The notes beneath the pieces are model-generated. The model was not told where the DNA came from. It saw nothing but the letters and a program-made list of their open reading frames with translations, and searched no databases. DNA of 63,710 nt, from contig JAMPFN010000008.1 in NCBI GenBank assembly GCA_023664445.1, positions 1 to 63,710 of the forward strand. Reading direction: 5' to 3'. This document shows positions 587 to 19,341 of this stretch, piece after piece. Position numbers and translations under genes: made by a program. Positions within the stretch are counted from its first letter, which is position 1; every line of letters begins with the position of its first letter. This DNA is from Clostridium sp. GTDB lineage: Bacteria > Bacillota > Clostridia > Oscillospirales > Ruminococcaceae.

Positions 587-615
587 TTGACATTGAATTA
601 TTTTTGTGATATAAT
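587..615 (+). promoter_or_regulatory. sigma-A promoter for tRNA-Gln
   Basis: TTGACA at 587-592, a 17-base spacer and TATAAT at 610-615, with TG one base before the -10 (extended -10). This near-perfect consensus faces the tRNA, which starts 36 bases downstream of the -10. No other downstream gene on this strand explains it. Confidence 0.85.
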
Positions 616-650
616 ATTAATGAAATTAAGTGATACTGCTTGTATTATAT

Positions 651-726
651 TGGGGTGTCGCCAAGTGGTAAGGCAGAGGACTCTGACTCCTCCATCCCGT
701 GGGTTCAAATCCTACCACCCCAACCA
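651..726 (+). tRNA. tRNA-Gln (anticodon CTG)
   Basis: A full cloverleaf can be drawn. The acceptor TGGGGTG pairs with CACCCCA, the D-arm is GCC/GGC, the anticodon stem GAGGA/TCCTC holds loop CTCTGAC with anticodon CTG (reads CAG, Gln), and the T-arm is GTGGG/CCTAC with loop TTCAAAT. Discriminator A723 is followed by an encoded CCA at 724-726. It has its own promoter and terminator, so it is an independent plus-strand unit facing the minus-strand phage genes. It could be phage-encoded or a host gene next to an integrated element; I see no second copy of its 3' end in the window to mark an attachment site. Confidence 0.95.
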
Positions 727-5141: not shown

Positions 5142-5184
5142 CTGTTTAATTTACTTGAAATTTGACATTTACACTCTTATATCT

Positions 5185-5196
5185 ATAATAACGATT
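5185..5196 (-). promoter_or_regulatory. phage promoter motif AATCGTTATTAT
   Basis: A perfect copy on the minus strand, with TTTTTGATTTC upstream so that GATT...AATC forms a small inverted repeat. It lies 80 bases before the D12 methyltransferase start, at the head of the three-gene methylase run. Confidence 0.6.
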
Positions 5197-5250
5197 CCCT
5201 GAAATCAAAAAATACTGCATCAAGTAAACACTTAATGCAGTATTTCCAAA

Positions 5251-5415
5251 TTAAAATAATTTTTTGGCGGTTCTTTCAAATGTTTTATGACTTGGTTTAA
5301 CAATAAAATCATCTGATACTTCGTTTCCCCAACAGTCCCAATCAGGATATTTCTGCCTTGCAAAATATTTATATGTATTATAACGATTGTCAAAATCACA
5401 AAAAATAAAGTCACT
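5251..5415 (-). pseudogene. C-terminal coding fragment ending AKKLF
   Basis: An open frame with no usable start codon reads FDNRYNTYKYFARQ, then PDWDCWGNEV, and ends FERTAKKLF before TAA at 5251-5253. Composition is convincingly protein-like, and the ending matches the KP(K/R)(K/R)LF tail of other phage proteins. A copy of the AATCGTTAT motif (5377-5388) lies inside it, encoding NRYN. It probably is the remnant of a gene whose 5' part was removed when the ATPase at 5460 was inserted; a non-ATG start is the alternative. Confidence 0.4.
5377..5388 (-). promoter_or_regulatory. variant phage promoter motif
   Basis: AATCGTTATAAT on the minus strand, just after the terminator of the ATPase gene. 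Its position after a terminator is typical of the motif, but it overlaps a coding-like fragment and has no clear gene start behind it. Confidence 0.35.
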
Positions 5416-5443
5416 TCAAAAATTTATCTGAAGTGACTTTATT
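5400..5443 (-). terminator. terminator after AAA/DUF4143 ATPase
   Basis: A perfect 15-bp stem (5404-5418 with 5429-5443) with a 10-base loop, followed on the minus strand by a T run. The stem is symmetric enough to work in both directions. Confidence 0.85.
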
Positions 5444-5459
5444 GAATATTTTGATAAAA

Positions 5460-6641
5460 TTATTGTAATAAGAAATCAATTATATTGATAATTTTGATTC
5501 CCTCTTCATCCATTGGTAGTTCATCCATTGTGATGATATACTTGGGGTAGTTATCCTGAACACGCTTCAATGGCGTGATTTCTCTCTGAAAGGTGTTCTC
5601 ATCAATTATAGTTGCAGATACTTGATAATATATCCTTTCACCGTTATGTTCTGCAACAAAGTCAATTTCTAAGTCGCCGACCTTTCCGACGCTTACCTTG
5701 CAGCCGCGGCGGATCAGTTCCAAATACACGATGTTTTCAAGAACATGACCGATGTCCTGTCTGCGGTTACCAATCAATAAACGACGAAGCCCAATATCCA
5801 CAGCGTAATACTTTTCCAGTGATTTTAAATGCTGTTTGCCCTGAACATCATACCGTTCTGTCTTGTACAGAATGAAAGCGTCTGACAGTGCAGTGATATA
5901 GTTTTCCACCGTTACAGGTGTTGTTTTTCTGCCGAAAGAAGTCAGGCTGTCTGCAATCTTTTTGGAAGATACAATATTTCCGATGTTGTCAAACAGAAAT
6001 TTTACAACACTTTCCAACAGTCTGATATCATTTATACGTTTTCTTGCTGCTATATCCTTAAGCAGTACCGTATGATAAATACCGATAAGATAATCGGCTC
6101 TGATTTCATCATCAGTTATCTGAACTGCATAGGGGAAACCGCCGTATTGAAAATAGTTCTGCCATGCAGTGCGTTTATCAAGGTTGGATAATTCGAGATA
6201 TTCTGCAAATGATAACGGAAGCATCGGAATTTCAATATATCTGCCTGAAAGCAGAGTAGCAAGCTCTCCGGACAGTAAATGTGCATTGGACCCGGTAATA
6301 TAAATGTCCGTCTGTTCGCGGATAAACAACGAATCCACAGCTTTTTGGAAATCCGGAACAGCCTGTATTTCGTCAAGGAAGATGTATGTCATCTTATCAG
6401 TCTGCAAATGTTCAATTACATAGTCATGTAAAGCGTGGTATTCAAGAAGATGCTCATTTGCAACATCTTCAAAGTTAATTGTAATGATTTGTTCGGAATC
6501 CACACCGGATCTCAGAAGATATTCCTGAAACTGTTTCAGCAATGTGGATTTTCCGCATCGTCTTACGCCTGTCACCACTTTGATGATCTGCTGATTTTGT
6601 AGTTTCTTAATTTTATTCATATACTGTTTACGTTCAACCAT
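5460..6641 (-). CDS. AAA ATPase with DUF4143 domain
   Basis: A 393-residue P-loop ATPase. Walker A GVRRCGKST is at about 23-31, Walker B YIFLDEIQ near 86, sensor-like TGSNAHLLSGELATLLSGR near 116, and LPLSFAEYLEL is a signature of the AAA_14/DUF4143 family. The C-terminal half has the DUF4143 nuclease-like features (LENIVYLEL, then DLEIDFVAE). Family members are common in bacterial chromosomes and mobile elements; the biochemical role is not settled. ATG at 6641 is chosen for its AGAGGTG site. The gene has its own sigma-A promoter, a 44-bp palindrome and its own terminator, so it looks like a moron gene dropped between phage operons. Confidence 0.88.
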   Translation of the reverse strand: MVERKQYMNKIKKLQNQQIIKVVTGVRRCGKSTLLKQFQEYLLRSGVDSEQIITINFEDVANEHLLEYHALHDYVIEHLQTDKMTYIFLDEIQAVPDFQKAVDSLFIREQTDIYITGSNAHLLSGELATLLSGRYIEIPMLPLSFAEYLELSNLDKRTAWQNYFQYGGFPYAVQITDDEIRADYLIGIYHTVLLKDIAARKRINDIRLLESVVKFLFDNIGNIVSSKKIADSLTSFGRKTTPVTVENYITALSDAFILYKTERYDVQGKQHLKSLEKYYAVDIGLRRLLIGNRRQDIGHVLENIVYLELIRRGCKVSVGKVGDLEIDFVAEHNGERIYYQVSATIIDENTFQREITPLKRVQDNYPKYIITMDELPMDEEGIKIINIIDFLLQ

Positions 6642-6658
6642 GCTATCACCTCTGTTAT

Positions 6659-6688
6659 AGTATACCACAAAAAATCTATAAAAGTCAA
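6659..6688 (-). promoter_or_regulatory. sigma-A promoter of the ATPase gene
   Basis: TTGACT (6683-6688), an 18-base spacer and TATACT (6659-6664) with TG before the -10, on the minus strand. The -35 lies in one arm of the palindrome at 6681-6724. Confidence 0.7.
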
Positions 6689-6724
6689 TAGTTTTTGAAG
6701 TATACTTTAAAAACTATTGACTTT
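6681..6724. repeat. 44-bp near-perfect palindrome
   Basis: Arms of 16 bp (6681-6696 and 6709-6724) are exact reverse complements. The 12-base centre is itself palindromic (AAGTATACTT) apart from its outer pair. It overlaps the -35 box of the ATPase promoter and so could be an operator or a cruciform-forming site; it could also be the scar of a mobile element. Confidence 0.85.
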
Positions 6725-6781
6725 AATCTTTTATAAATACGGATCAAGGCTTATGATTCTATCAATTTTTCTTTATAGAGA

Positions 6782-7156
6782 CTAATCCTTTCTCCACTCA
6801 TTATCAAGATAGCACTTATAATGCTGACTGTTATCATATCGGATTATCGGTTCACTGCGTAATCCAAACTCAGATTTGATCAAGGGAATAAATTCATCAT
6901 CAACATTGGGATTCATATAGATGATTGGCTTTCCCTTGTTAGAAATATCAACTCTTCCTCTTGGATAGTAGTTATATGGTTTATTGCAGCCACGAGGTTT
7001 AACATCGTTCCATAACTTTTTATGATTATATGTGTTTCCGGATTTTGCAACACCTTCAAGGGAGTCGTCCATAAATGGAAATGCCAGAAGTTCATCATTA
7101 ATTACCCAGAATACACCTCTGGACATTTCCTTTGCTGATTTAATATATACTTTCAT
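6782..7156 (-). CDS. hypothetical protein, paralogue of 31095-31568
   Basis: A 124-residue protein starting MKVYIKSAKEMSRG, one of the shared N-termini. It aligns with the protein at 31095-31568 through G-x-FWVI-(N/D)-DEL, a central H-x-x-W, and YYPRGRV / YFPRGRV followed by a conserved patch ending in the Ile-rich C-terminal third. The two therefore belong to one unnamed family that was duplicated or acquired twice. No catalytic motif is recognised. It has a sigma-A promoter at 7196-7224 and lies alone between the ATPase and the PP-loop gene. Confidence 0.75.
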   Translation of the reverse strand: MKVYIKSAKEMSRGVFWVINDELLAFPFMDDSLEGVAKSGNTYNHKKLWNDVKPRGCNKPYNYYPRGRVDISNKGKPIIYMNPNVDDEFIPLIKSEFGLRSEPIIRYDNSQHYKCYLDNEWRKD

Positions 7157-7195
7157 ATTTCTATACCTCTTATTTGTCTTTATATCTCACATATA

Positions 7196-7224
7196 ATTAT
7201 ATCGTACTTAATATTATTTGTAAA
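7196..7224 (-). promoter_or_regulatory. sigma-A promoter, TACGA subclass
   Basis: Minus-strand TTTACA (7219-7224), a 17-base spacer ending TACGA, and TATAAT (7196-7201). Almost the same as the promoters at 1549 and 28701. It drives the gene at 6782-7156. Confidence 0.75.
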
Positions 7225-7235
7225 GATATTTTATA

Positions 7236-8279
7236 TTATTTCAGCTCAAATAATTTCTTAGGTTTCTTAACAGGCTTATAATCCACACCTATGTAATCAA
7301 GAACCTTACCAAGCCCCAAGCCGTCTTTTGACGGCTGCCACACACCATCTGCTTCCTCACCGCCATTAATGCAATAGTTATATATTTTCGGATGTGTTTC
7401 TGCAAGTTTCTGAAAGCGATTTTCAGGCTTTTCAAGGTGACAGCCAAACATACAGAACATACAGCCTGTCCTTTCAGCGCCTGTTGTATAATACTTCCCG
7501 TTTTTATCTTTTAAGATTTCACCATATACAGAGGCATAATCAAGATCATATTTAACTATATACTCCAGCACATCTTGTTCAGTCCAGAATGACATAGGCT
7601 GAGAAGATTTTCTACTTCCTTCAAAAGCATTGCAGCCATGTTGAATCCACCATTCAAATCTTAATTTTGATTCACAAGCCATAGTTGCTATAAATGGAAC
7701 TCCGCCGGTTTTCTTTTCATATTGCTTTGCAGGATTTTTCTTCATTACCGTGCAGCATTCCGCAGAACAGTTAAATGGAGCTTCAAGTAAAAACTTCCAC
7801 CTTTCACAGTTATATTGACTTTTATTACCGCTTTTATCTAAAGACAATCCGCAAAGTTTAAGATAATCTCCATGATTTTGTTCTCTGCCCTCTGCAACGG
7901 CTTTCTTAGCATACTGTACTCTGCGTGAAACTTCTTTTGAAATAACAGGATAGCCGTATTTACGAATAACTTGTTTGAATGATAGTGACGGTCTTATAAT
8001 TTTAATATTATCTCCCTTATCTTTGCACTTCTGCACAAATTGACGAATTTCCGGATATTCAAGTCCCGTATCGATAAACACAGACGGTACGTCATAAACG
8101 CCCGGCGTATTTTCAATTATATGCTTTAAAACCGTACTATCCTTTCCGCCGCTAAATGATAAATATACATCTCCTCCAAAATGATCATACCAATCTTTGA
8201 TACGTCTCTGCGTCATGATTACCTTAATCTCTAATGGAAGACTCTGCATTTGAGCAAGATCAGACACCTGATGCCTCAT
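7236..8279 (-). CDS. PP-loop PAPS-reductase-like protein
   Basis: A 347-residue member of the PAPS reductase/ATP pyrophosphatase superfamily. The PP-loop SFSGGKDS is near residue 43, with a FIDTGLEYPE motif near 72. A Cys-rich second half (CSAECC near 173; CMFCMFGC near 282) would bind a metal or iron-sulfur cluster. True PAPS reductases are shorter; phage homologues of this size resemble DndC-like or thiolation-type enzymes, but the reaction cannot be stated. ATG at 8279 is taken for its spacing from GGAG. The C-terminus KKPKKLFELK carries the KLF tail seen in the neighbouring methyltransferases, so it is probably part of the same DNA-modification block. Confidence 0.85.
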   Translation of the reverse strand: MRHQVSDLAQMQSLPLEIKVIMTQRRIKDWYDHFGGDVYLSFSGGKDSTVLKHIIENTPGVYDVPSVFIDTGLEYPEIRQFVQKCKDKGDNIKIIRPSLSFKQVIRKYGYPVISKEVSRRVQYAKKAVAEGREQNHGDYLKLCGLSLDKSGNKSQYNCERWKFLLEAPFNCSAECCTVMKKNPAKQYEKKTGGVPFIATMACESKLRFEWWIQHGCNAFEGSRKSSQPMSFWTEQDVLEYIVKYDLDYASVYGEILKDKNGKYYTTGAERTGCMFCMFGCHLEKPENRFQKLAETHPKIYNYCINGGEEADGVWQPSKDGLGLGKVLDYIGVDYKPVKKPKKLFELK

Positions 8280-14643: not shown

Positions 14644-16488
14644 TTAACCGACTTCAATAACAAATTCCTCAGCCTTTGGATGTGTACACTGCTGTACGCC
14701 GACAAGAAGTATTTGTATACTGTCAATATTATATAAGGTTTCAAAGCAATCCTTGATCCTTACAGTATCAAGGTGGTCAAGCAGATCGTCTATCATCACA
14801 AGCTTCAACGGCGAATCCGATTCATCAACAATGCTTATCAGCAAAGCAAGCGTATACAGGCATTTTTCACCACTTGAAAGCAAGTCAAACTCAATATATT
14901 CATTACTTTTATCAAGCACGCCAAAGCTAAAACTGTTTGCTTTTTCCGAAAGATGAAATTTAGCTGTTGAGAATTTTTCAGTACCGGAAAAGAATTTCTG
15001 AAGATATACCGTCATCTTATCGGCAAGCTTTTTAAACGGCGCTTCCATAAGCTGAGACTGCAAACCGTTTACGTCAGTAAGCTTTATCCACACTTTCAGA
15101 ATCTCAATATTCTGCTCTGTTTTGTATTTATCATTGGTAAGCCTGTCGGTAAGTTCTTCATACCTTTTGTTTGCTTCAAGCTTTATAATAGTGTCATTAT
15201 GCTGCTTAATTTTGGATTTAAGAGAAACTATTTCGGCAGTAATTTCATCTTCTGTTATGTCTGTAACATCTGTATTCATCTGCTTTGAAATGAGTTCGTA
15301 TTGAGCATAGGCTTTTTCGATTTTCTGCATATCTGCAAGCTTGCTGTTGATTTCAGACTTCAAAGCCGTAATTTTATCATCAAGCTCAGTCACCTGTAAA
15401 GTTAAGCTGTGAATTTTTTCTTGAAGTTTTTCCATTTCCGTATTATAAACAGAAATTAACGCTGTAATAGAAGCACAATTTTCACATGTATAAGGACACT
15501 TTCCGCTGCTTTCGGCAACACGTTTCTTTTCCTTGTACTCAATATTTGCTTCGGAAATCTGCTTTTCAAGCATCATTTTTCGTTCTTCAAGAACAGCGAG
15601 TTCTTTTTCAGCTGCTTCGACAGATTTCTTTGAAGAATTATAAGCCGAATCCTCATTTAAGGACGGAGCAGTAACGACAGATTTTATGGATTTCATACTT
15701 TCAGCCAATTTATGGTTCTGCTGAATTTTGAGCAGCTTGGTATTCATATTGTCAATATTCAGCTGCATAGCCTGAATATCGGATTTCAGAGAATCAACAC
15801 TCTGAGAATTATCGCACTCGCTGTAGTAAATAAGGCTTTGTACGGTATTCTGTAATCTTGAAAGCTCTGCCTTGTAATAAGACTGCTGTTCTTTCAGATA
15901 TGTATTGAAATCTCTCACCAATTTTACGCCGTGATCCTGCTGTGCTTTATCGGTAATGTGAGAAATTACTCCGTTGATAAATTCCGGATCAAGAATCTTT
16001 CCGAAATCTGCAATAGAATCATTCAGTATGCTCTTCCAGTCAAGTTTACTGTCAGCAGCCGGAAGAAAATTGATGAACCAATCCTTCAGCTTGTTTGCAG
16101 TCATGCCGATAAACTCTGAAAAGTTGAATACCGGAAGTTCAAGACCGCCGATAATTCCCTCAACGCTGTATATTGAAGGTTCAATGCTGAAACCTGCTAT
16201 AATAGACGCGCCTTTCTTATACCACTTCCTCATAATGGTAATAGGATTTCCGTTGTCGTCAATAATGAGCTTAACAAACATTTCAGGTGAATTTGAATGC
16301 TTGAAGACAGCGCTCTTGTTTTTATCCGTTCCGGGAATGTAGCCTAAAAGCGCAAGCTGAATCGCCTGCATAACTGTTGATTTTCCTGCTCCGTTTTCTC
16401 CGTGAAAATATCGGAATCCCGAAAGATCATACGTCTTATCTTTGACCTTATGCATTCCCTTGATTGTAATAGATGAAAGCTTCATCAT
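14644..16488 (-). CDS. Rad50/SbcC-like recombination ATPase
   Basis: 614 residues in SMC/Rad50 layout. Walker A FHGENGAGKST is near 29-39; two long coiled-coil arms run about 190-310 and 330-460; a hook CPYTCENC with the Rad50-type Cys pair is near 325; the ABC signature LSSGEK is near 535 and Walker B LVMIDDLLDHLD near 563. This matches T4 gp46 and SbcC-type proteins that, with an Mre11-like nuclease, process DNA ends. No Mre11/gp47 partner is in the window. It starts ATGATG after AGGAGG and is driven by the motif at 16518. Confidence 0.9.
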   Translation of the reverse strand: MMKLSSITIKGMHKVKDKTYDLSGFRYFHGENGAGKSTVMQAIQLALLGYIPGTDKNKSAVFKHSNSPEMFVKLIIDDNGNPITIMRKWYKKGASIIAGFSIEPSIYSVEGIIGGLELPVFNFSEFIGMTANKLKDWFINFLPAADSKLDWKSILNDSIADFGKILDPEFINGVISHITDKAQQDHGVKLVRDFNTYLKEQQSYYKAELSRLQNTVQSLIYYSECDNSQSVDSLKSDIQAMQLNIDNMNTKLLKIQQNHKLAESMKSIKSVVTAPSLNEDSAYNSSKKSVEAAEKELAVLEERKMMLEKQISEANIEYKEKKRVAESSGKCPYTCENCASITALISVYNTEMEKLQEKIHSLTLQVTELDDKITALKSEINSKLADMQKIEKAYAQYELISKQMNTDVTDITEDEITAEIVSLKSKIKQHNDTIIKLEANKRYEELTDRLTNDKYKTEQNIEILKVWIKLTDVNGLQSQLMEAPFKKLADKMTVYLQKFFSGTEKFSTAKFHLSEKANSFSFGVLDKSNEYIEFDLLSSGEKCLYTLALLISIVDESDSPLKLVMIDDLLDHLDTVRIKDCFETLYNIDSIQILLVGVQQCTHPKAEEFVIEVG

Positions 16489-16517
16489 GTGTACCTCCTG
16501 TGTTTTTTATTACGTTT

Positions 16518-16529
16518 ATAATAACGATT
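16518..16529 (-). promoter_or_regulatory. phage promoter motif AATCGTTATTAT
   Basis: A perfect copy with TTTTTGATT upstream, 30 bases before the Rad50-like start. It points away from the plus-strand promoter at 16558, so the two are divergent. Confidence 0.6.
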
Positions 16530-16557
16530 CTCATGAATCAAAAATTTTTGGAAACTA

Positions 16558-16586
16558 TTGACAACACTAACATTATATAGTATAAT
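16558..16586 (+). promoter_or_regulatory. sigma-A promoter of plus-strand RNA
   Basis: TTGACA (16558-16563), a 17-base spacer and TATAAT (16581-16586): full consensus. It points into a gene-free interval that ends in a plus-strand terminator. Confidence 0.88.
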
Positions 16587-16688
16587 AAATATAGGAGATG
16601 ATCTTCTCTCCGTTTAAGATTAGACATAGAGCATTGTCTAAGTAAAAATAAAGAAAGCTCATAACTATAGAAAGATGGAATTACTTTC

Positions 16689-16784
16689 AAATATTTGTCG
16701 CCTTTGAATATGCGACTGACAAATTATTCGATTTAAATGTTTGCCGCTTCCGGACATGCGTCTGATAAATTGTCCGGTTCAAAT
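16689..16784 (+). repeat. two 46-nt tandem repeats (plus partial third)
   Basis: Units at 16689-16734 and 16735-16780; AAATG at 16781 begins a third copy that ends at once. Each unit has the loop core ATGCG-x-CTGA-x-AAAT inside a 7-bp stem. In unit 2 the stem is CCGGACA/TGTCCGG; in unit 1 it is TTGAATA/TATTCGA. Most differences are compensated on the other arm. Confidence 0.85.
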
Positions 16785-16846
16785 GCAAAGTCTCACAATT
16801 TGTGTGAAGTTTTAGTTTTTATAAATTTTGTAAAGATACTAATAGT

Positions 16847-16940
16847 AGGTTACAGAACCATTATAAACTGTATTTAATAGGGGTTACAGAACCGTCATAA
16901 ACTGTTTTTATAGGGGTTGCGAAACCGTCATAAATCGTCT
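16847..16940 (+). repeat. three 33/34-nt tandem repeats with pseudoknot pattern
   Basis: GGTT boxes stand at 16848, 16882 and 16915. Each unit reads GGTT-4 bases-AACC-8 bases-4 bases. The two tetramers after GGTT and after the spacer pair as ACAG/CTGT in units 1 and 2 and GCGA/TCGT in unit 3, so both strands changed together. Confidence 0.85.
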
Positions 16941-16987
16941 TAATAGTATCTTTAAAGGATTTAATAATAATTTGATTTTAGTCTAAT

Positions 16988-17028
16988 ATATGCCTTACTT
17001 CTTTTTACAGAGGTAAGGCATATTTTTA
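16988..17028 (+). terminator. terminator of plus-strand RNA
   Basis: An 11-bp stem (16988-16998 with 17013-17023) followed by TTTTTAT on the plus strand. It stands between the RNA and the 3' end of the helicase gene and may also stop minus-strand transcription. Confidence 0.85.
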
Positions 17029-17035
17029 TAAGATG

Positions 17036-18622
17036 TTACACATTCAGCTCGGAATCATAAATAACCAATTTTTCTTTAGCTCTGGTACAGCCAACATAGA
17101 ATAAATTCTGCTGTTCTTCATTCTTATTAACAGGGAAGGACTTGCCGTTCACGCCTACCAGATGTACGCAGTCATATTCAAGTCCTTTTACAGAATGGAT
17201 CGTACCGACATAAATACCCGTTTCTTTTGAAAGAGAATCAGCAAGCTGTATAAGGTAATCTATCACGCCATTGTCATCATCTGATTCAAGCTTTATAGTA
17301 CCTTGAGGAATATTCAGAAGCTCACTGATCGCCGTGATTTTACCATAGACAAACTGCTCTCTGTGAAGTACTTCACGCACTTGCATAATGATTTTTATAT
17401 AGGATTCAAGCGAATGATGATATAACTCCATAAATCCTACTTCCGTGCTATAGCCGCTGTCAATAGAACAATACCTGATGTAATTGTTATATTCATTTGC
17501 AGACAGCTTATTTGAAAGCCAGTCAACACAGAAATGACTATCAACAGCACTTTTCAGAATACCACTGACATCTGTATCGGTATGCTTGCTGTTAAACGGT
17601 ATATTGAGCTGTTCAAGCTTATCCTTTATCTCTGTGGCTTCATAGTTGGTTCTGCAAAGAATAGCCGTAGACTTTCCGTCAGCAGAATCACTCACTATAT
17701 TTAATATATCCTTATTATTATGAATATCTAATGCGCCACGCTCTATGACCTGAACTCCGATTCTGTCGCTCAGAATATCAAGATCATAAGCGCTTCCTTT
17801 CCAACTCTTATGGATCTCATTGGAATAATCACATATCTCTTTTGTTGAGCGGTAGTTTTCTGAAAGTTTGATAGTTACCCATTCAGGATTTTCGGCAAGA
17901 GATTTTATAATTGAAATGTCAGCGCCACGGAAGCTGTAAATGGCTTGTTTAGCGTCGCCGCATACAAAAATATTTGAATTTGTGAATGATGAAACAAATT
18001 CCCACTGTTTCGGGTCTGTATCCTGAAATTCGTCAACAAATACATATTTAAATCTCAGTTTTTCAGGGTCTGCAACAGGGTTATTATCCGAAAACAGCTT
18101 GCTTACGCCATAACACATAATATCGAAAGTGATGTAATTTTCTTCACGCAGCAGTTTGTCATACTGTTTCCAGAATATATCATACTGAAATTTCTCATTT
18201 GGTTTTAAAGGCATTTTACCGTTAAGCTTATCATCAGATATTTTTGTACCGCACTGCTGTCTGCAGCGTGTATGAATCTTACGTATCGTCATATCGTCTG
18301 CAATGGCGGGAGTATCTTTATAATAACCAAGATTTCTCGCTACAGCGCTGTTTCTGGATATAAGAGAATAGCAATAGCTGTGGAAGGTGCAGAACATCGG
18401 AATAGTCTGCCCCTTATGGGTTCTGCGGAATCTTTCACGCATTTCACAGGCTGCTGCATTTGTAAACGTAAGTACAAGAATACTTGAAATATCTGCTCCG
18501 TCCTCAATCAGCCTGTTAATTCTGGAAATTACGCAATGGGTCTTGCCTGTACCCGCACCGGCAAGGCATAGTATTTTCTCAGCGTCACAATTGACCGCTT
18601 GCTTCTGTGCTGTATTTAACAT
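17036..18622 (-). CDS. UvrD/PcrA-like SF1 DNA helicase
   Basis: 528 residues with the SF1A helicase motifs in order: Q-like LNTAQKQAV at the start, Walker A AGAGTGKT (about 21-28), Ia VLTFTNAAA, II VFVDEFQDTD (about 191), III GDAKQAIYSFRGAD, IV SENYRST (about 255), V TIHSVKGLEYD (about 478) and VI YVGCTRAK (about 510). It is a 3'-5' helicase/translocase, shorter than host PcrA (about 730), as is usual for phage copies. Likely works in replication or recombination with the Rad50-like protein next door. It has a leader hairpin with T-run (18642-18682). Confidence 0.93.
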   Translation of the reverse strand: MLNTAQKQAVNCDAEKILCLAGAGTGKTHCVISRINRLIEDGADISSILVLTFTNAAACEMRERFRRTHKGQTIPMFCTFHSYCYSLISRNSAVARNLGYYKDTPAIADDMTIRKIHTRCRQQCGTKISDDKLNGKMPLKPNEKFQYDIFWKQYDKLLREENYITFDIMCYGVSKLFSDNNPVADPEKLRFKYVFVDEFQDTDPKQWEFVSSFTNSNIFVCGDAKQAIYSFRGADISIIKSLAENPEWVTIKLSENYRSTKEICDYSNEIHKSWKGSAYDLDILSDRIGVQVIERGALDIHNNKDILNIVSDSADGKSTAILCRTNYEATEIKDKLEQLNIPFNSKHTDTDVSGILKSAVDSHFCVDWLSNKLSANEYNNYIRYCSIDSGYSTEVGFMELYHHSLESYIKIIMQVREVLHREQFVYGKITAISELLNIPQGTIKLESDDDNGVIDYLIQLADSLSKETGIYVGTIHSVKGLEYDCVHLVGVNGKSFPVNKNEEQQNLFYVGCTRAKEKLVIYDSELNV

Positions 18623-18819: not shown

Positions 18820-19341
18820 TTAAAACTGTTTTTGAATAAATGACTTATTATCTTTATTAAGAATTTCTATTGCCCTATCAACATCTGCATCTGATAAAGT
18901 ACGTTTCCAACTGTTATACCTCTCATCATCAAGTGTTTTGATTCTCGTAATTACCAAAAATTGAGACAACCATTTCCAGCAATAGAAGTCATCATCATCT
19001 ATTATACAAAATGTTTCAACATTTTCATTGCTTGCTAACCATCTGCGGATTTCAAATGGACGACTTTCAGGTCCAGAACGTTCAGTATAATCTGTTCTTC
19101 CCGATACTTTCATCCCGTACTTTTCAAAGTGATTATATAAATCTAAAATTTCCTTTTTGTCAGTCTGAAAGTTGTTTTCTACGAAATTCCAATAATTAAT
19201 TCTCCATGAAGAAGAAAGAATGATTTCTGCATTTGTTGCATCAACAATTCTTTTTAGACGTACAAAACATTCGTCTTTAAATTCTGCATCGTAATCTTCT
19301 TCTTTCAACACACCATCAATGTCTAAAAAAATAGCCTTCAT
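18820..19341 (-). CDS. HAD-superfamily hydrolase-like protein
   Basis: 173 residues. The HAD nucleophile motif FLDIDGVL is at 5-12 (first Asp is the nucleophile). ILSSSWR near 41 and CIIDDDDFY near 112 match the HAD group found in RNA-repair-associated and phage proteins. It may be a polynucleotide phosphatase; substrate is unknown. It has a sigma-A promoter (19388-19417). The lysine before the acidic loop is not obvious, so activity is not certain. Confidence 0.82.
   Translation of the reverse strand: MKAIFLDIDGVLKEEDYDAEFKDECFVRLKRIVDATNAEIILSSSWRINYWNFVENNFQTDKKEILDLYNHFEKYGMKVSGRTDYTERSGPESRPFEIRRWLASNENVETFCIIDDDDFYCWKWLSQFLVITRIKTLDDERYNSWKRTLSDADVDRAIEILNKDNKSFIQKQF

Follow-up and report, generated by a model that had tools for sequence, protein, structure and literature searches.

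The window analysed here is one whole contig of 63,710 bases from an assembly of 157 contigs, and no repeat was found between the contig ends. With a gp23-like capsid protein (PF07068), a prohead protease (PF03420), an SbcC-like ATPase, a UvrD-like helicase and an anaerobic ribonucleotide reductase among its products, the contig appears to be a portion of a T4-like phage. The long open reading frames of the contig lie on the minus strand. Between the SbcC-like and helicase genes, a transcript is predicted on the plus strand from a promoter and a terminator (Table 1). The sequence-only reading had described such a promoter, a gene-free stretch of about 435 nt and a terminator, all opposite to the flanking genes, and each of these elements was recovered; an open reading frame search of the interval gave no notable reading frame in the roughly 435 nt between promoter and terminator.

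Table 1. Positions of the predicted RNA, its antitoxin-like units and the flanking genes, in window coordinates
Feature	Position	Strand	Evidence or details
SbcC-like ATPase gene, flanking	14644..16488	-	PF13476, phrog_77
Promoter TTGACA-17-TATAAT	16558..16586	+	12/12 consensus match
Predicted transcript	16593..17028	+	inferred from promoter and terminator
5' hairpin GGAGA...TCTCC	16594..16611	+	sequence, fold
TenpI-like unit	16617..16667	+	stem 1 16620-16626/16635-16641; pseudoknot stem 16629-16632/16657-16660
CptI-like unit 1	16686..16731	+	stem 1 16697-16701/16712-16716; stem 2 16704-16709/16726-16731; R2 28.5 bits, E 7e-6
CptI-like unit 2	16732..16777	+	stem 1 16743-16747/16758-16762 (one mismatch); stem 2 16750-16755/16772-16777; R2 31.9 bits, E 7e-7
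Closing partial CptI repeat TTCAAATG	16778..16785	+	sequence
Perfect 10-bp helix enclosing ToxI-like array	5' arm 16832..16841, 3' arm 16944..16953	+	fold, sequence
ToxI-like unit 1	16841..16871	+	stem 1 16848-16851/16856-16859; stem 2 16852-16855/16868-16871; R3 E 0.23, weak alone; layout
ToxI-like unit 2	16876..16905	+	stem 1 16882-16885/16890-16893; stem 2 16886-16889/16902-16905; R3 E 4e-5
ToxI-like unit 3	16909..16938	+	stem 1 16915-16918/16923-16926; stem 2 16919-16922/16935-16938; R3 E 0.0024
Closing partial ToxI repeat TTAATAG	16940..16946	+	sequence; same end in G237
Terminator	16988..17023	+	15-pair stem, then T's
UvrD-like helicase gene, flanking	17036..18622	-	PF00580, phrog_1967

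Promoters that match the consensus at all 12 positions numbered six in the whole window, against a mean of 0.13 in 30 Markov-shuffled windows. Another of them lies 35 nt upstream of a plus-strand tRNA-Gln gene (window 587-726), so the contig has more than one plus-strand RNA gene behind a perfect promoter. A third plus-strand promoter of this quality (window 5162-5460) is followed by a strong fold (z -5.0) in a stretch with no Rfam match of weight; it was considered as a second antitoxin locus and set aside, as no recognisable antitoxin lies behind it.

Family models were built from toxin-linked bacterial arrays with the window excluded, namely R1 for TenpI, R2 for CptI and R3 for ToxI. Read along the plus strand, positions 16617-16946 held one TenpI-like, two CptI-like and three ToxI-like units, and the three family-specific models matched within 330 nt on one strand with the unit spacing of each family. 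R1 and R2 each reached E 7e-7 in the window, where nothing else fell below E 0.1 save the second unit of R2. All units fit H-type pseudoknots, and paired changes relative to the bacterial units were present in all three types. The sequence-only reading had taken the repeats for orphan type III antitoxin units, and on this point the models and the toxin-linked relatives agree with it. Its two tandem arrays also stood, as two 46-nt units matched by R2 (array 1) and a repeat of period 33 (array 2). Its count of two antitoxin types has to be replaced by three families, because it had overlooked the TenpI-like unit. The model search of the interval that it had proposed gave matches to R1, R2, R3 and, below the gathering score, to Rfam family RF02925.

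RF02925, named 6A RNA, matched the TenpI-like unit over its full length of 51 nt at 35.6 bits (E 1.7e-5 in one search and 3.4e-5 in another), short of the gathering score of 41.2, and had no other match elsewhere in the assembly. R1, which was built from 10 units, scored the phage unit at 35.4 bits, with the next match in the window at E 1.3. Five of 391 genomes of the class held RF02925, the phage locus being among the five. At the other four loci (L065-L068), two or three adjoining units, the second of L068 detected by R1 alone, lay less than 80 nt upstream of a gene of 135-151 aa, and in all four this gene was a TenpN over the cut-off (NF047358, 131-151 bits). Because the repeats precede TenpN at four of four loci examined, 6A RNA, which Rfam classes as an sRNA gene, appears to be the TenpI repeat. 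When the phage unit was aligned with the TenpI units, 99.2% of cells paired, with both-sided changes at 7/7 pairs of stem 1 and at 2/4 pairs of the pseudoknot stem (GAGC-GCTC, GGGC-GCCC, GAAC-GTTC); alignments A1 and A4 omit one duplicate L065 unit. The phage unit is thus related to TenpN-linked 51-nt repeats and shares their pseudoknot. R1 found it as a single unit, with no tandem repetition in the window, and no published repeat number sufficient for TenpI was found.

The two CptI-like units are 46 nt each and abut; Tandem Repeats Finder did not report this array. R2 was made from 15 units of eight CptN loci (L107, L108, L110, L112-L116), omitting both 51-nt units of L109, which are in alignment A2 only, as well as L111 and L117-L120. 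Its next match in the window, at E 0.38, was on the reverse strand of the CptI-like site. CptN (NF047359) occurred in 12/396 host-family genomes, in nine of them over the cut-off, and an upstream array with a period of 45-51 was reported by Tandem Repeats Finder at five of the 12 loci, with units recognised by eye in L113-L116. In the alignment of 38-nt cores (A7; 12 rows, units of L108-L110, L112-L115, L193 and L196 left out), 98.5% of cells paired, and stem 2 was paired in all 12 units with paired changes at 5/6 pairs; the count of further pair types was reached in 65/500 shuffles. The short first loop (one to two nt) and the long second loop rich in A are as in the CptI crystal structure given in the available text of PMC4627078, and the arrays of L107 and L123 close like the TTCAAATG end of array 1. 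Array 1 is therefore CptI-like by its units of about 45 nt, its short first and long A-rich second loop, and its kinship with CptN-linked arrays.

Array 2 was reported by Tandem Repeats Finder with period 33, 3.2 copies and a score of 119. When the interval was compared with 396 host-family genomes, 27 had matches at E 0.001 or below, which with few exceptions were short and lay in the promoter region. An array in genome G237 was 78% identical to array 2 over 107 nt (E 2.3e-16; query 291-399, which is window 16840-16948), and this array precedes a 192-aa ToxN gene (PF13958, E 2.9e-40; AbiQ in PADLOC, E 3e-16) with a terminator in between. ToxN was found in 23/396 host-family genomes, 22 of them over the cut-off, and a tandem array lay within 500 nt upstream of ToxN in 26 of 30 fetched loci. 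Two of the loci, L042 in G237 and L047 in G136, have arrays that resemble array 2 and toxins that resemble each other, and R3 consists of their five units. There is some circularity in R3, since it was the likeness of L042 to the window that led to this locus; the E 2.3e-16 of the G237 match is free of this circularity. Scanning genome contigs with the ToxI-clade pattern gave 10 loci, all from Ruminococcus, Hungatella or Clostridia bacterium. A ToxN over the cut-off stood behind the array in five (L180, L182 (R. bicirculans 80/3), L185, L187 and L188, the last inferred to be the G237 locus), broken toxin pieces were seen by eye in L181 and L186, the contig ended in L184, and no ToxN frame was seen behind the array in L179 and L183. 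The units of these last two Clostridia assemblies (L183 3345-3376 and L179 5653-5750) may reflect either solitary bacterial antitoxins or toxin loss.

As judged from the sequences, array 2 is most closely related to the antitoxins in ToxIN loci of Ruminococcus. In the phage, two units have the form GGTT-ACAG-AACC...CTGT and one has GGTT-GCGA-AACC...TCGT, and the bacterial units of this clade mostly have ACGA...TCGT. Over 12 units of the clade (A8; L047, the middle units of L182 and L185, L179 and duplicates left out), 95.8% of cells paired. Stem 2 was paired in 12/12 units with paired changes at three of its four pairs, one pair of stem 1 was open in 4/12 units, all of them bacterial, and further pair types did not go beyond shuffles (107/500). 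Phage units 2 and 3 share 25/30 and 27/30 bases with one L185 unit, and array 2 is related in sequence to toxin-linked arrays. The main-clade ToxI profile had no match in the window.

The chance of such layouts was estimated over 368 nt, where ToxI, CptI and TenpI pseudoknot layouts numbered 3, 2 and 2 against 0.12, 0.07 and 0.05 expected, the layouts having been drawn up with the units already seen; across the whole window their number did not exceed that in shuffles. Of the two TenpI layouts, the one at 16803 was rejected as a unit. A control over 43 bacterial loci (L055 and L117-L120 left out), which measures cross-reaction and not sensitivity, showed that R1 matched the four TenpN loci alone, R2 nothing but L068 and eight of the ten CptN loci (those that it was built from), and R3 no locus apart from the two that it came from. 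In L068 the CptI matches precede a second toxin, a CptN at 125.5 bits, so TenpIN and CptIN stand side by side there, and there was no cross-reaction of the models between ToxN, CptN and TenpN loci. On the minus strand of L068 (241-1602), a complete TenpIN is directly followed by a complete CptIN, and in a host of this type a two-family decoy would be of advantage to a phage. A search of 16490-17035 up to E 5 gave no match to the abiF RNA (RF03085). Among the matches listed for the interval against named-phage DNA (60 records, E up to 10), the best had E 0.2 and none covered 80% of the interval; a short match in Bacillus phage phiBsKO1-1 was dismissed as a unit and had no Rfam match.

Profiles of ToxN, CptN and TenpN gave no match in six frames of the window, in agreement with the sequence-only reading that no toxin gene is adjacent. 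The locus is thus not a complete type III toxin-antitoxin locus; its neighbours are the helicase and SbcC-like genes, which lie at most 548 nt apart and therefore leave no space for a toxin gene. In the rest of the host assembly neither ToxN nor CptN matched, and TenpN gave one match of 21 bits, below the cut-off and within a 786-aa frame, so the targets of the phage RNA would sit in other strains. Host-family genomes with toxin loci whose repeats resemble the arrays, for which that reading had proposed a search, do exist. ToxN loci in G237 and G136 correspond to array 2, and the host-family genome G136 combines ToxN of the array-2 kind (L047) with CptN (L112) behind repeats like array 1.

Units of about 33, 46 and 51 nt in tandem, H-type pseudoknots, a promoter and a terminator are shared with the known ToxI, CptI and TenpI antitoxins, as described in the available parts of PMC5086642 and PMC4627078; the phage locus differs from these bacterial loci in having no toxin gene, in joining three families in one predicted transcript and in lying on a phage. 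The nearest precedent is the pseudo-ToxI of phage PhiTE, which likewise consists of phage-borne intergenic RNA repeats similar to a type III antitoxin, and by which ToxIN-mediated abortive infection can be suppressed (PMC3475682, in part). According to the same portion of that paper, the wild-type pseudo-ToxI has 1.5 repeats and no full unit, and abortive infection was suppressed only once it had expanded or recombined. In the present locus, too, a phage has an antitoxin-like RNA but no toxin to go with it. In contrast to the one specificity described for PhiTE in the accessible sections of PMC3475682, it has three families with full, ready units. The RNA anti-CRISPRs (Racrs) also are phage RNAs that mimic the repeat RNA of a defence system, but from the available text of PMC10651486 they are solitary repeats directed at CRISPR-Cas. 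TifA of T4-like phages is a phage counter to ToxIN as well, but a protein that binds ToxN and RNA (PMC10853763, available part). AbiF/RCd22 of the C. difficile phage phi027 is a phage repeat RNA antitoxin from a Clostridium relative, but forms a complete toxin-antitoxin pair, and its hairpin motif RF03085 is unmatched in the phage locus (PMC12373285, in part). In the literature searched, mostly outside subscription journals, neither a natural multi-family antitoxin array nor 6A RNA as TenpI was found, and PhiTE pseudo-ToxI was the only RNA mimic of a type III antitoxin that we found in print.

We favour, with a probability of about three in four, a reading in which one predicted RNA with one TenpI-, two CptI- and three ToxI-like units binds host type III toxins of several families during infection and keeps them silent. 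For ToxIN, once the phage shuts off host transcription, the unstable antitoxin runs out and the RNase is set free (PMC10853763, available part). By the mechanism proposed here, such a shut-off would remove the short-lived host antitoxins and release the toxin RNases, and the phage, by transcribing its RNA from a promoter of its own, would replenish the antitoxin pool. Each toxin would cut the phage RNA at the repeat junctions into monomers, which would re-occupy their cognate toxin, and abortive infection would fail. With three specificities in one RNA, the locus would be of use in hosts with any or several of ToxIN, CptIN and TenpIN. The closing partial repeats seen in bacterial arrays are kept in array 1 (TTCAAATG) and array 2 (TTAATAG), which would fit cutting into monomers by the toxins. 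In the available text, 2.5 of the 5.5 repeats of ToxIPa are within the working range (PMC5086642) and one repeat of CptI gave full antitoxicity (PMC4627078), and the repeat numbers of the ToxI-like and CptI-like arrays of the phage lie within these published ranges. If this reading is true, a standing three-family array would mean that type III systems press phages enough in nature to select a broad RNA counter-defence; the toxins that a phage can silence would become predictable from sequence, and the Rfam 6A RNA would gain a function.

The same RNA could have another opponent and shield the phage, or a host cell that it infects or lysogenises, against type III loci on competing prophages, plasmids or satellites instead of the bacterial chromosome. 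The viral contigs L104, L123 and L124 do contain complete TenpIN or CptIN loci, but the closest relatives of array 2 are in bacterial assemblies and the exact ToxI-clade pattern was found in no viral contig, and we consider this opponent unlikely. The complete loci in viral contigs would also be in line with a remnant, in which three type III loci once borne by the phage lost their toxins and their RNA now drifts. However, the three families share one perfect promoter and terminator, the unit pairing is kept with paired changes, and the flanking genes leave no room for a toxin, of which no piece was found in six frames; drift from lost loci is thus less probable still. A structured or antisense RNA with another role, for example in control of the helicase or SbcC-like genes, and with no more than a likeness to antitoxins, would suit its position opposite two replication genes and its folding energy relative to shuffles (z -3.2, and -4.7 on the other strand, so the plus strand was not singled out), but is very improbable given that three family models match in 330 nt on one strand with family-true spacings.

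Scans of viral contigs with R1 covered 80 and 33 loci, and those with R2 covered 34 and 33. Orphan units were found in ten distinct viral contigs (L144, L147, L172, L154, L083, L082, L193, L191, L194 and L196). Duplicates were counted once, namely L152, with the same scores as L144, and L192, with the sequence of L191; L121 and L195 were left out of the count as their contigs end where the toxin would begin. No toxin was found in the fetched stretches of the ten contigs, and for ToxN the search covered those stretches only. TenpN and CptN were each found in 0/6 whole records (L144, L147, L172, L083, L082 and L154), some of which may be fragments, in a search whose controls gave no match; the same TenpN and CptN models do match in bacterial genomes. 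Two of the ten orphan contigs mixed families. L193 has two CptI matches followed by two TenpI matches 48 nt on, and L144 has two TenpI units, a CptI unit about 720 nt on and then a ToxI-looking stretch, which was the best match of the main-clade ToxI profile (77 loci), 26 nt behind the CptI unit, at E 1; as a ToxI unit this stretch is suggestive only. We find it reasonably probable that phages carry natural polyvalent antitoxin arrays, in which mimics of ToxI, CptI and TenpI are joined in one RNA and would forestall all of the classic type III toxin-antitoxin families, with the present locus as a trivalent case and L193 and L144 as independent mixed cases.

Several other candidates in viral contigs were discarded. 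A pattern TAGAGCA...AAAGAAAGCTCA gave 34 stretches, most inside genes by eye, and these were accepted as units only where R1 agreed. The R1 match in L164 (E 0.06) was inside a 962-aa frame and the R2 match in L189 (E 0.15) was also inside a frame; the R1 matches in L200, L201, L204, L205 and L208 (E 0.013) were not counted, and L213, L032 and L030 had no CptI unit. Compared with named phages, the arrays of L193, L104 and L123 gave one 21-nt match, none and none, respectively.

The sequence-only reading had named homologues with conserved flanks but unconserved repeats as a refuting outcome, and the result of this test speaks against a core role. Nine loci of distant phage relatives found through the flanking genes (L003-L008, L010, L012 and L032; 36-47% identity) contained no units. 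In L007 the order of the helicase and SbcC-like genes is kept with a 371-nt gap between them that has no array, and the locus is thus accessory and not core.

The units of L144 are in a long stretch without clear genes (6400-8000) of a 122-kb viral contig, with a tRNA at 8126. In L193 (800-1040), L154 (349-447) and L196 (2709-2802), the units adjoin related genes of about 400 aa (24-29% identity), which in L193 and L154, the two tested, code for a phrog_284 exonuclease; the spot beside these genes is perhaps a recurrent anti-defence site. Within the window, a protein of the HAD_SAK type (Swiss Army Knife RNA repair, PF18143) is encoded on the minus strand at 18820-19341 with its own 12/12 promoter and terminator, and might be relevant to RNase defences.
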